Shown piece by piece: positions 27,139-31,512 of a stretch of DNA of 64,000 nucleotides (its first letter is position 1; every line of letters starts with the position of its first letter). Both the position numbers and the translations under genes were made by a program. This DNA is from Candidatus Bathyarchaeota archaeon (GTDB lineage: Archaea > Thermoproteota > Bathyarchaeia > TCS64). A model generated the notes under the pieces. It searched no databases and was not told where the DNA came from. It was given only the letters and a program-made list of their open reading frames with translations. The stretch spans positions 62,001 through 126,000 of the forward strand of contig JABIBQ010000028.1 in the NCBI GenBank assembly GCA_018652685.1. The letters are read 5' to 3'.

Positions 27139-29193
27139 ATGCTGATCAAAGAGGTAATTCTAGAGAACTTCATGTCATACGAGTATGCCCGTATACCCCT
27201 TAGGGAAGGGGTGAACGTCGTATGCGGACCAAACGGCTCGGGCAAGAGCAGCCTCCTTCTAGGAATCTGCGTCGCCCTCGGGGACACATACACAGAGAGA
27301 TCAAAAAAATTAAGCGACCTCATCAGGTGGGGCGCTGATGTCGCCAGGGTAACTTTGACCCTTAACAACGGCAAAAAGGCAAACGGCTACAGGCCCGTCC
27401 CACAGTACAACATGGACGATATCACCCTCACGAGGACCCTCCGCACGGACGGCAAGTATGGTTTCCAGCTCAACCAGAGGAATGTCTCGAAGATCGAGGT
27501 AGTCAGCCTGCTCAAGACTTTCGGTTTCGACCCCAATAATATGCTCATCATCATGCACCAGGCCATGCCAACCAGGTTTGCCAACATCAACCCTAAGGAG
27601 AGGCTCAAGATACTGGAATCCGCAGTCGGGTATGAGACGTTCAGGGATGACGTCATCGAGGCCAAGAGCAAGCTAAGCGGAGTCCTCAGCGAGGAGCAGA
27701 GCCTTGGTAGCCTAATGAACCAGGCAAGGGAGACACTCAATTACTGGCGCGAGCAGAACGAGAGGCTTCAGGAAAAGAAACAACTCCAGACCAGGCAGGT
27801 CTTTCTCCAGCAGGAGATGGCATGGAGCCGCGTCGTAATGCTTGAGGCACAGGTCGAGAAGCTACTGGACCAATTCGGCGACACCGAGAAGGACTTGGCT
27901 GATGCCGAGGCCGAGATGGCCAGGAACACCCAGAACATCGTTGACTCAGAGTCATCTCTACGTGAGATGCGCACCCACAGGAACGACCTCATCGAGAAGA
28001 GGATCGCGTCAGAGAGGGCAATCGGCGTAAACGAGTACAGCATCAACGCTGCCAAGGAGCAGATTACCCAGCTTGACAGGATACTCAAGAACAGCCAGGA
28101 GCAGAGGCAGAGGTTCGAGTCAAGCTTCAAATCATTACTTTCACAGGTCCAGGGTAGCGATACCAAGCTGGACGATTACTTCAGCCTCTTCACCCAGATC
28201 GAGGAGACACAAGTCGAGTCATACGACAGCCTCAATACCGAGTTCGGATCACAGAAGATGGTCAACCAGACCAGCCTAGAGTCCTTCTCAAACCAGCTAT
28301 CAGCGGCAGAGGAGGAGAGCCTGCGCCTCATGAACGAGATGGAGGGCGTCCGCAGGGGTATCGAGCAGTCAAACGACAAGTACATCGATTCCAGGATCAG
28401 GCTGGCCCTCCTCAAGGACAGGAGGCAGAGGCTAAGCCGCAGGGTACAGCTACTACAGGGCGAGATTGACAGGGCAAACAGGGATCTGAAGGACTCAGAG
28501 GCAGAGGCACTCATCAGGGGCCCCAGGATCGAGACCGGTAGGACCGGCGACGACATACTCAACGAGATCAGGAAAACCCAGGGCATCCTCATGGGCATGG
28601 CAAACATCCCCGACGAGGCCGAGGAGATGTACGAATCCTACAACGAGACCTATAAGGAGATTCAGAAGCGCATCGAGGAGGTCAGGGCCAACAGGATCAG
28701 AATTCTACAGGAGATCGAGGAGCGCCAGAAGAGGTGGCGAGAGATGACCGAGACGATGCTTGACGAGGTCAACATCCGGTACAAGCAGCTTCTCAGGAAG
28801 CTCCAGGCCGTAGGCGAGGTCAGGCTCATCAACAACCATGACATCGAGGAGGCCGGGCTTGAGATGTACGTTGGCTTCAAGGGGGCGGCGACACAGAAGC
28901 TGGACCCCTACACCCATAGTGGAGGCGAGAGGAGCAGCAGTGTAATGGCGTTCCTGCTGGCACTGCAGCAGAACATACTGAGTCCATTCCGGGCAGTGGA
29001 CGAGTTCGACCTGCACATGGACCCCCAGAACAAGGAGGCCGTCAGTGATTTCATCGTCTCTACCATGGCGGGCACAAACGACCAGTATATCGCCATCACG
29101 CCTAGCCAGGTCACTTTCAAGGGAACGGATGTCCACATCATCATGATTCACAAGTCCGAGACGGTCTCGATACCGAGGCTAGTGGAGGCGTAA
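27139..29193 (+). CDS. SMC-superfamily ATPase, SMC5/6-like, short arms, no recognisable hinge
   Basis: Walker A GPNGSGKSS after LENFMSYEYARIPLREGVNVVC; QEMAWSRVVMLEAQVEKL; signature HSGGERSSSVMAFLLALQ; Walker B SPFRAVDEFDLHMDPQNKEAV; 684 aa. Confidence 0.85.
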   Translation: MLIKEVILENFMSYEYARIPLREGVNVVCGPNGSGKSSLLLGICVALGDTYTERSKKLSDLIRWGADVARVTLTLNNGKKANGYRPVPQYNMDDITLTRTLRTDGKYGFQLNQRNVSKIEVVSLLKTFGFDPNNMLIIMHQAMPTRFANINPKERLKILESAVGYETFRDDVIEAKSKLSGVLSEEQSLGSLMNQARETLNYWREQNERLQEKKQLQTRQVFLQQEMAWSRVVMLEAQVEKLLDQFGDTEKDLADAEAEMARNTQNIVDSESSLREMRTHRNDLIEKRIASERAIGVNEYSINAAKEQITQLDRILKNSQEQRQRFESSFKSLLSQVQGSDTKLDDYFSLFTQIEETQVESYDSLNTEFGSQKMVNQTSLESFSNQLSAAEEESLRLMNEMEGVRRGIEQSNDKYIDSRIRLALLKDRRQRLSRRVQLLQGEIDRANRDLKDSEAEALIRGPRIETGRTGDDILNEIRKTQGILMGMANIPDEAEEMYESYNETYKEIQKRIEEVRANRIRILQEIEERQKRWREMTETMLDEVNIRYKQLLRKLQAVGEVRLINNHDIEEAGLEMYVGFKGAATQKLDPYTHSGGERSSSVMAFLLALQQNILSPFRAVDEFDLHMDPQNKEAVSDFIVSTMAGTNDQYIAITPSQVTFKGTDVHIIMIHKSETVSIPRLVEA

Positions 29194-29194
29194 T

Positions 29195-29968
29195 ATGTCA
29201 GAGCTTGAGAGCGTCATCAACCTGTGCCTGATGGTTCAGAGCGGCAAGATCGAGCCATTCGACATCGATTTTGATTACGTGATGAGTGTTATCAAGAAGA
29301 ACTATCCAAACCTCAAGAACGTCCAGGAGTTCTGCCTGGACGCACAGGCGCTCAAGGAGCTGAGCAACGTCCTTGAGCGGCAGAACCAGTGGATCGAGCA
29401 CCAGTCAACCACGTTGTACAAGGACCCGTTCATGTTGAGCCAGAGCCTCATGGGCATGGACATCGGGGCCATAGCGAACGCGTTCCTCCGTTCATGGCAT
29501 CCACTCATGGAGATGGAGCAGATAAGCACCAAGACCTTGGCGGGGAGCCTGAGCTACTGGGGCGGACTGATACCCTTCGATGAGAGGTGGCAGGACTGCC
29601 TAGTGGAGGAGCGAGAAACTGAGTACGCCAGCATGGACGAGGCGATAGAGCTGGGTTTCATACCCGGAGAGGGGTTCACGGAGGTCGTGGAGAACTTTTG
29701 GAAGGAGCTCGGTGAGCGCGTCGGTCCAGGAGGTATAATAGAATACTGGGAGTGGATAGGGGAGGAGACCTACGAGGCCACCGTATACAGGGCCTACTTA
29801 ACGGTCTTCATGGTGGGTTACGGCTACGCGAACGCCCACTGGGACCGACTCATGGAGGAGAACAAGATCATACACAACGTGGAGCCGCGGCCTGACCCGG
29901 GCCAGCAGAAGGTCAGCATACCGACGATGGTAGATTACGAGGAATGGAAACAATGGCAAAACGATTAA
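29195..29968 (+). CDS. Putative kleisin-like (ScpA/Nse4-type) subunit of the SMC complex
   Basis: N-terminus LESVINLCLMVQSGKIEPFDIDFDYVMSVIKKNYPNLKNVQEFCLDAQALKELSNVLERQNQWI resembles ScpA; 1 nt downstream of the SMC stop codon. Confidence 0.45.
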   Translation: MSELESVINLCLMVQSGKIEPFDIDFDYVMSVIKKNYPNLKNVQEFCLDAQALKELSNVLERQNQWIEHQSTTLYKDPFMLSQSLMGMDIGAIANAFLRSWHPLMEMEQISTKTLAGSLSYWGGLIPFDERWQDCLVEERETEYASMDEAIELGFIPGEGFTEVVENFWKELGERVGPGGIIEYWEWIGEETYEATVYRAYLTVFMVGYGYANAHWDRLMEENKIIHNVEPRPDPGQQKVSIPTMVDYEEWKQWQND

Positions 29969-30531
29969 CCAAGACGGAGCAGGTATACCAGAGGAAGCTA
30001 AAGGACGCGGTCCACCTACTATTCTTCACACACCACAGGCTGCCCGGCGTGCGTGGTTGGGAGCTGCGCAAGGAGCTGGGTGCCGACTGGCAGAACATTA
30101 TCGAGGTTCTGGACAAGCAGCTCCAACCACTTGACCTAAAGGTTACCCGAGTCTTGGAAGAGCCAGACATCGTGGAGCCCACCAACGCCCAGTTACAGGA
30201 GGCGAGGTACTACATCATCATGAGGGGCACCGTTGACCAGAAGACCGCCAAGACCATCGGCTGGCGAATCGACGACATAGCGGGTCTGGCCGTATCCGTG
30301 GCCTATATCATCTCAAAGCAGGGCAAGGTCCCCCGCCAGGACGTGGAGCGGATACTGGAGGAGAAGCTGCCTGGATGGAGGGTCAAGCTCAACATCGACA
30401 GGTACGTCCGCCAGGGTTACCTGGGAGAGGACGACTCGGGTATCCTGTACCTCGACTGGAGGGCAAGGGCAGAAATTGATACAAAGAAGCTCGTTGATCT
30501 CGTGGTCAGTTTCGGAAAGAAAGCGGCCTAA
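29944..30531 (+). CDS. Putative kite-type winged-helix subunit, Nse3/MAGE-like
   Basis: GLAVSVAYIISKQGKVPRQDVERILEEKLPGWRVKLNIDRYVRQGYLGEDDSGILYLDWRARAEIDTKKLVDLVVSFGKK resembles the MAGE homology domain (..WVRQ-x-YL..Y-x-W-x-RA-x-AE..); overlaps the upstream ORF. Confidence 0.5.
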   Translation: METMAKRLTKTEQVYQRKLKDAVHLLFFTHHRLPGVRGWELRKELGADWQNIIEVLDKQLQPLDLKVTRVLEEPDIVEPTNAQLQEARYYIIMRGTVDQKTAKTIGWRIDDIAGLAVSVAYIISKQGKVPRQDVERILEEKLPGWRVKLNIDRYVRQGYLGEDDSGILYLDWRARAEIDTKKLVDLVVSFGKKAA

Positions 30532-31116: not shown

Positions 31117-31512
31117 ATGGCGCAAGATGATCCTAAAATGTTGGGCACAGTTAACGAGGTTGGCCTGAAGAGGGACGAACAGGAGTTCAGGAACTATAAC
31201 CTCACGGTCGGGATCAAGCTCAAGACAGGGAAGAAGCTGACCTACGCAGAGGGCGCGAAGCTCATCAAGCAGCTTAGGAAGAACCTCCTCGGCAAGAACA
31301 TTGAGCTGGAGGCCATCGCCGTGCCGTGCCCATTCTGCGGTAAGACCTACAACAGCGAGACGGGCATGAAGCAACATGTTAGGCGACAGCACGAGGGTGA
31401 GGAAGAACCACCCAAGAAGAAACGGGGCCGTATAAAAAAGGCAGCAGTCAAAAAGCCCACCAAGAAGTCGGCAAAGAAGCCGAGGAAAAAGTCTGCCTCC
31501 AAGAAAAAATAA
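31117..31512 (+). CDS. C2H2 zinc-finger protein with histone H1-like Lys/Ala/Pro-rich tail
   Basis: CPFCGKTYNSETGMKQHVRRQH then KKKRGRIKKAAVKKPTKKSAKKPRKKSASKKK. Confidence 0.75.
   Translation: MAQDDPKMLGTVNEVGLKRDEQEFRNYNLTVGIKLKTGKKLTYAEGAKLIKQLRKNLLGKNIELEAIAVPCPFCGKTYNSETGMKQHVRRQHEGEEEPPKKKRGRIKKAAVKKPTKKSAKKPRKKSASKKK

Follow-up and report, generated by a model that had tools for sequence, protein, structure and literature searches.

A hinge-less SMC-kleisin-kite operon of SMC5/6 type in Bathyarchaeia, encoding a putative ATP-cycled DNA clamp

The 2.38-Mb Bathyarchaeia assembly GCA_018652685.1 contains, at positions 27139-30531 of the window analyzed here (a stretch of 64,000 nucleotides of contig JABIBQ010000028.1), an operon of three genes that probably encodes a second SMC (structural maintenance of chromosomes) complex of SMC5/6 type, composed of a hinge-less SMC ATPase, a kleisin and a kite and most likely acting as an ATP-cycled DNA clamp. 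The heads of the ATPase, the kleisin and the kite are three independent lines of evidence that point to SMC5/6. SMC5/6, with its Nse4 kleisin and kites of MAGE type, has been regarded as a machine of eukaryotes, and the SMC complexes of archaea have been regarded as kite-less. A sequence-only reading of the window had described three genes on one strand, with one nucleotide between the first two and an overlap of 25 nucleotides between the second and third, as a minimal archaeal SMC5/6-type complex, and the open reading frame coordinates agree exactly with that layout. The operon is not a product of chance, because all three reading frames and the gene order are conserved across loci.

To judge from its sequence, the ATPase retains intact every motif of a working ABC-type SMC head. 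The Walker A motif GPNGSGKSS, the signature SGGERSSS and the motif SPFRAVDEFDLHMDP, the last two of which had been read as SMC5/6-type head features, are present and vary little or not at all among 43 homologues. The ATPase matches Pfam SMC_N (8.4e-34), and the best match of the single sequence in the PDB is yeast Smc5 (3.6e-30); with a profile of the ATPase family, the best ten PDB chains are all Smc5 or Smc6 (1e-65 to 8e-57). In a tree of 52 head sequences, the ATPase family forms a clade with human SMC6 and yeast Smc5 (97.9 in the Shimodaira-Hasegawa-like approximate likelihood ratio test, SH-aLRT, and 96 in the ultrafast bootstrap, UFBoot), canonical archaeal and bacterial SMC proteins form a separate clade (99.7/100), and addition of SMC3 leaves the clade of the family with SMC5/6 in place (98.8/96). 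An approximately unbiased (AU) test of three alternatives, run with 5000 replicates where the program advises 10000, rejects the grouping of the family with canonical SMC/SMC3 (p 0.008), of SMC5/6 with canonical SMC (p 0.0016) and of the family with Rad50-type proteins (p 0.0017). The head phylogeny, one of the checks named in the sequence-only reading, thus places the ATPase with SMC5/6 and apart from canonical SMC, SMC3 and Rad50-type proteins. The family also has in common with human SMC6 a joint motif (EMAWAVV versus E-L-A-W-A, its tryptophan conserved in 67 of 67 homologues) and a second joint motif in the C-side arm, RIE (G-x-RIE-like).

A feature overlooked by the earlier reading is that the ATPase, with 684 residues, is roughly half as long as a normal SMC protein (the genome's canonical SMC has 1183 residues) and has no hinge. 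The residues between the joint motifs number 110-234 among 67 homologues, with a median of 193, whereas canonical SMC has long arms there in addition to a hinge of about 110 residues. Pfam SMC_hinge is absent among the 25 most frequent of 194 families for 43 ATPases of the class to which the genome belongs, a result that allows for rare weak single matches, nor do four short ATPases of genomes outside the class match it; the canonical SMC encoded in the window genome, as a positive control, matches SMC_hinge at 3.3e-16. The distal segment is coil-like, poor in Gly and Pro (almost free of them in some members), weakly conserved and two-fold variable in length. No CxxC zinc hook was found in the short ATPases checked, and most Rad50-type proteins of the same genomes carry one. 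As far as sequence can tell, the ATPase is an SMC protein with neither hinge nor zinc hook. Of the proposal of a minimal SMC5/6 complex, the SMC5/6 type stands, but the word minimal understates the case: the hinge and distal arms are gone, only a single kite gene is present, and the operon encodes neither a RING nor a SUMO-ligase subunit.

Single-sequence searches of Pfam and NCBIfam with the kleisin and the kite returned nothing usable, and profiles were required. The sole PDB matches of the kleisin profile are Nse4 (9.7e-6) and human EID3/NSE4B (8.5e-5), and Pfam Nse4_C matches 37 of 50 members of the kleisin family (best 4.9e-6); the kleisin of the window itself, however, matches no Pfam family, and a search of its genome with the single hidden Markov model Nse4_C gave no match. 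The predicted model of the kleisin, with an overall predicted local distance difference test score (pLDDT) of 58.6, has Nse4 chains at ranks 1-3 in Foldseek, and re-alignment gives Z scores of 10.5, 10.4 and 9.2 for Nse4, 8.1 for ScpA, 7.0 for Scc1 and at most 6.1 for unrelated folds. Gene 2, which had been called kleisin-like, is a kleisin whose nearest solved relative is Nse4 rather than ScpA, and its membership of the Nse4 family applies to the C-terminal domain only. Kinship with ScpA lies at the C-terminal winged helix, where the ScpA encoded beside the canonical SMC is related to the operon kleisin. A ScpA profile matches the homologous kleisin of another genome (G164) at 5.6e-8, so that gene 2 is tied to the kleisin superfamily by sequence.

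The assignment of gene 3 as a kite is firm in this context, and a relationship to Nse3 in particular is likely rather than proven. The AlphaFold2 model of the kite contains two winged helices (pLDDT 70.5), for which a chain of the MAGE-G1/NSE1 complex (2.7e-4) and MAGE-A4 (4.3e-4) are the top Foldseek matches and Nse3 of the Nse1-3-4 complex has rank 5. Z scores upon re-alignment (VIA) are 9.6 for MAGE-A3, 8.8 for Nse3 and 8.6 for ScpB, with a crowd of other winged helices close behind. ScpB was rejected as the nearest kite: its match covers only the first winged helix, and the second leads to MAGE/Nse3. When PDB sequences were searched with the profile of the kite, all matches were at chance level. 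The MAGE-like winged helix predicted for gene 3 is therefore recovered as a tandem winged-helix kite whose model is structurally nearest to MAGE/Nse3, with a weak, subthreshold sequence signal. No second, RING-bearing kite (Nse1) was found, the window genome having one kite gene of this family and unrelated kites not having been searched for, and the kite itself has no RING match in its 195 residues.

Genome searches covered the window's own phylum. The kite is present in 113 of 151 genomes of the class and the kleisin profile has matches in 157 of 398 genomes of the phylum, and the order ATPase-kleisin-kite is constant in all class loci on contigs of sufficient length. Class genomes without the kite, where they were also sampled for the kleisin, lack the kleisin too, except for one (G014) in which the kite is not listed and the kleisin sits at a contig end. 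Outside the class, 27 loci from about 20 families were compared; the ATPase gene is directly upstream on the same strand in 22 of them, and the kleisin and kite genes are adjacent in 26. The exceptions include one locus (L122) with the kite about 1.9 kb away and two genomes (G163, G155) with the ATPase displaced or inverted. In one family, the hinge-less ATPase gene (G163:C17; L190, L158) is apart from the kleisin-kite pair and about 11 kb from a canonical SMC gene. The three-gene synteny, whose conservation had also been named as a check, thus extends from the class loci to 22 of the 27 loci elsewhere in the phylum, and as in SMC-kleisin-kite systems generally, all three components are encoded together. 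The operon is mostly single-copy throughout the class and the phylum. No relative turned up when IMG/VR was searched with the kleisin profile, and nothing therefore points to carriage by mobile elements or viruses.

The window genome also has the gene of the canonical SMC, a protein with a hinge, and beside it a ScpA-like gene. Elsewhere, canonical SMC and ScpA were both undetectable in 12 of 16 genomes tested, and the other four have both, so that the absences coincide exactly. The 12 genomes belong to three families (eight of f29, three of f33 and one of f45: G153, G162, G169, G176, G190, G210, G222, G234, G157, G178, G185, G204) and are 89-99% complete. Incompleteness of metagenome-assembled genomes is a poor explanation in view of twelve matching double absences, and the hinge-less SMC appears to be the only SMC machine in some archaea. 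Conversely, all eight class genomes without a kleisin match have canonical SMC, and the short ATPase is absent from seven of these and present as a partial copy in one. Together, the 12 genomes without the canonical system and the eight without the kleisin indicate that either system can stand in for the other and that both can occur side by side.

Table 1. Features of the operon and examples of the associated upstream family. Positions are those of the window unless a locus is given.
Feature	Position	Strand	Remarks
Hinge-less SMC5/6-type ATPase, 684 residues	27139..29193	+	N-head, head-proximal coil, short distal hairpin, C-head
Walker A GPNGSGKSS, residues 30-38	27226..27252	+	G30, P31, N32, G33, G35, K36 and S37 invariant in 43 homologues
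Q-loop glutamine Q141	27559..27561	+	Invariant in 43 homologues
N-side joint motif EMAWS, residues 226-230	27814..27828	+	W229 in 67/67 and E226 in 65/67 homologues; corresponds to EMAWAVV of human SMC6
Distal segment between joint motifs, 231 residues	27826..28518	+	Coiled-coil-like; no room for SMC hinge plus arms
ABC signature SGGERS, residues 594-599	28918..28935	+	S594, G595, G596, E597 and R598 invariant in 43 homologues
Walker B/D-loop SPFRAVDEFDLHMDP, residues 615-629	28981..29025	+	D621, E622, H626 and D628 invariant in 43 homologues
Shine-Dalgarno-like GGAGG ahead of kleisin gene	29184..29188	+	Read from the sequence
Nse4-like kleisin, 257 residues	29195..29968	+	Nse4 profile and structure matches
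Kleisin C-terminal winged-helix domain, approximately residues 159-227	29669..29875	+	pLDDT about 80-95 in most of the domain
Kite (tandem winged-helix protein), 195 residues	29944..30531	+	Predicted model; start possibly 29953
Upstream family of approximately 230 residues, examples	L127:5161-5937; L120:1404-2090; L019:2250-2984	+; -; -	

The kite reading frame has an in-frame ATG at 29953 with GAGG 10 nucleotides ahead of it; thus, the kite may begin there, which would reduce its overlap with the kleisin gene to 16 nucleotides.

If the three proteins form a complex, as we infer, its stoichiometry, clamping, work on DNA and cellular role may be pictured as follows. Two of the short ATPases would sandwich ATP between their heads, and the Nse4-like kleisin would be an asymmetric bridge, with its N-terminal part on the neck of one ATPase and its C-terminal winged helix on the head of the other. 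The kleisin would carry the kite, probably as a dimer, and the kite would press DNA onto the engaged heads, so that the complex could serve as an ATP-cycled clamp or short-range DNA handler in chromosome maintenance or repair. In the absence of a hinge, the ATPases should not be able to close a large SMC ring, and a clamp or short-range DNA machine is most likely for this reason. Yeast Smc5/6 holds DNA in a clamp made up of its heads, the Smc necks, Nse3 and Nse4 (PMC9191643), and the clamp has been seen as a likely core SMC compartment, distinct from the ring closed by the hinge (PMC10512200). Every part of the clamp is kept in the archaeal operon and the parts for ring closure are gone, which is the basis for proposing an ATP-cycled clamp. 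Where canonical SMC-ScpA is absent, the hinge-less complex must perform any SMC work that is done. A more far-reaching claim, that the hinge-free system is deep-branching, has given up the tripartite SMC ring along with the hinge and yet is the sole SMC of whole archaeal lineages, with the clamp alone sufficing, and is the living sister of the eukaryotic SMC5/6-Nse4-Nse1/3 module, is put forward tentatively and with somewhat less than even confidence.

Several observations weigh against the proposal of a hinge-less clamp of SMC5/6 type. The head trees hold just two SMC5/6 and two SMC3 sequences, the latter as N-heads alone; the N-head of the ATPase, taken alone, scores SMC3 slightly above Smc5 (67 versus 60 bits); the matches of the kite sequence to Nse1/MAGE are below the Pfam cut-offs; the N-terminal half of the kleisin (residues 43-142), where the neck-binding helices are expected, which in eukaryotic SMC5/6 form a helix-turn-helix on the SMC6 neck, is modelled at a pLDDT below 50; and the distal hairpins might dimerize in an unrecognized manner and close a small ring. 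The last of these would make the complex a ring-forming motor, in which the distal hairpin tips of two ATPases pair as a degenerate hinge and the small ring translocates or extrudes DNA. Dimerization at the arm tips occurs in all well-studied SMC and Rad50 complexes, every homologue retains a distal segment within the range of lengths given above, and the system is the only SMC found in 12 genomes, but such a motor is rather unlikely: neither SMC_hinge, among the families listed, nor CxxC, in the short ATPases checked, is present, and poor conservation, a two-fold range of lengths and the near lack of Gly and Pro in some members are unlike a folded dimerization domain. An ordinary canonical SMC-ScpA(B) complex that has merely diverged would account for the SMC3 score of the N-head and for the relationship of the operon kleisin to ScpA. 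It is the least probable reading, given that the same genome has a separate hinge-bearing SMC with its own ScpA-like gene, and that the tree and the AU test reject it (p=0.008, an outcome that a larger data set could reverse); the C-head alone has a clear preference for Smc5.

The ATPase might otherwise be a hinge-free repair ATPase with a short coiled coil, like RecN or RecF, that has recruited winged-helix partners and is not part of an SMC complex. Its size is like that of RecN and the convergent Lhr-type helicase neighbor described below would suit a repair function, but the heads group with SMC5/6, RecN models match at about 1e-4 compared to 1e-54 for SMC models, and a kleisin and a kite are the defining partners of SMC complexes, all of which makes this explanation improbable. 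Defense against plasmids or viruses in the manner of Wadjet or Lamassu is given an equally low probability. The SMC-kleisin-kite composition resembles JetABC of Wadjet, the PADLOC profiles LmuB and JetC match the ATPase weakly, and eukaryotic SMC5/6 is active in immunity against foreign DNA (PMC10586767). On the other hand, no JetD-type gene is in the operon, the kleisin and kite have no PADLOC match, the operon is mostly single-copy and spread through the class and phylum with its synteny kept where defense islands are patchy, and it encodes the only SMC in some genomes.

Among neighboring genes, an Lhr-type helicase gene (WH_Lhr, DEAD_assoc; e.g., L134:3-2048, + strand) lies convergently downstream of the kite gene in approximately 15 loci, most of them outside the class. 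A family of approximately 230 residues with no Pfam match (Table 1) is encoded divergently just upstream of the operon in approximately 20 loci inside and outside the class. The window genome has relatives of both elsewhere (of the latter at G000:C52:24981-25664, L192). The upstream family is a candidate partner of the operon, and the neighboring genes hint at a role in DNA repair or replication. Downstream of the operon in the window, past a cupin gene, the reading frame at 31117-31512 (+) encodes a small protein that has a single C2H2-type zinc finger and a tail rich in lysine. Around 2258-2572 of contig C11 of the genome (G000:C11, L180) is an 865-residue SMC-superfamily-like open reading frame without CxxC, possibly a divergent Rad50-like protein.

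The operon resembles eukaryotic SMC5/6 (Smc5, Smc6, Nse4 and Nse1/Nse3) in the clade of its heads, the EMAWA and RIE joint motifs, the C-terminal winged helix of Nse4 type and the kite of MAGE/Nse3 type. Unlike eukaryotic SMC5/6, the archaeal complex would lack a hinge and long arms, the window genome has a single SMC5/6-type ATPase gene where a heterodimer requires two, and the one kite has no RING; the Nse2 SUMO ligase, Nse5 and Nse6 are not in the operon, to which this comparison is confined, no genome-wide search having been made. Wadjet/MksBEF (JetABC) and MukBEF have the same SMC-kleisin-kite operon logic. Their ATPases are long-armed and hinge-bearing. They differ further in JetD or in a MukBEF-specific kleisin; with no PADLOC match for the kleisin or kite and no further gene, the operon does not have the JetABCD composition of Wadjet. 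Nor does the ATPase have the CxxC hook and Rad50 head affinity of Rad50/SbcC and of ASRP (coalescin/Sph), or the length (approximately 1180 residues), hinge and clade position of the SMC in canonical SMC-ScpA(B).

Archaeal SMC-ScpA, which coexists with the operon in the window genome, likewise combines an SMC with a kleisin, but its SMC is hinge-bearing and it has been argued to work without a kite (PMC7055376), whereas the present operon has a kite gene. Archaeal "SMC5/6-related" SMCs have already been reported as a clade from head alignments (PMC9389158, citing Yoshinaga & Inagaki 2021). The operon ATPase has the same clade position and very probably belongs to this group; in the parts of that report that were consulted, no kleisin, hinge loss, operon or exclusive presence is described. 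Hinge-less SMC variants of unknown function, with no kleisin or kite reported, were described in 2025 from oceanic Actinomycetes (PMC12153180); these have an SMC head and coil with no hinge or zinc hook, as here, but are bacterial environmental sequences. In the literature searched, the titles and abstract openings of papers that deal with Nse4, archaea, kleisin and kite contain no description of an archaeal Nse4. No report of an archaeal Nse4/kite operon or of hinge loss was found in a search that did not include the preprint of van Hooff et al. (2024), which is reportedly concerned with the prokaryotic roots of SMC complexes and possibly overlaps.

An archaeal sister complex with all three types of subunit would date the SMC5/6 module before eukaryotes. 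A hinge-free complex would also be a natural test of whether SMC function needs a closed ring with a hinge gate, or whether an ATP-driven clamp at the heads is enough, and lineages with no other detected SMC make the question of ring versus clamp testable both in cells and with purified proteins. If the more far-reaching claim of a sole, hinge-free SMC system is true, a DNA clamp of heads, kleisin and kite alone can carry SMC function.

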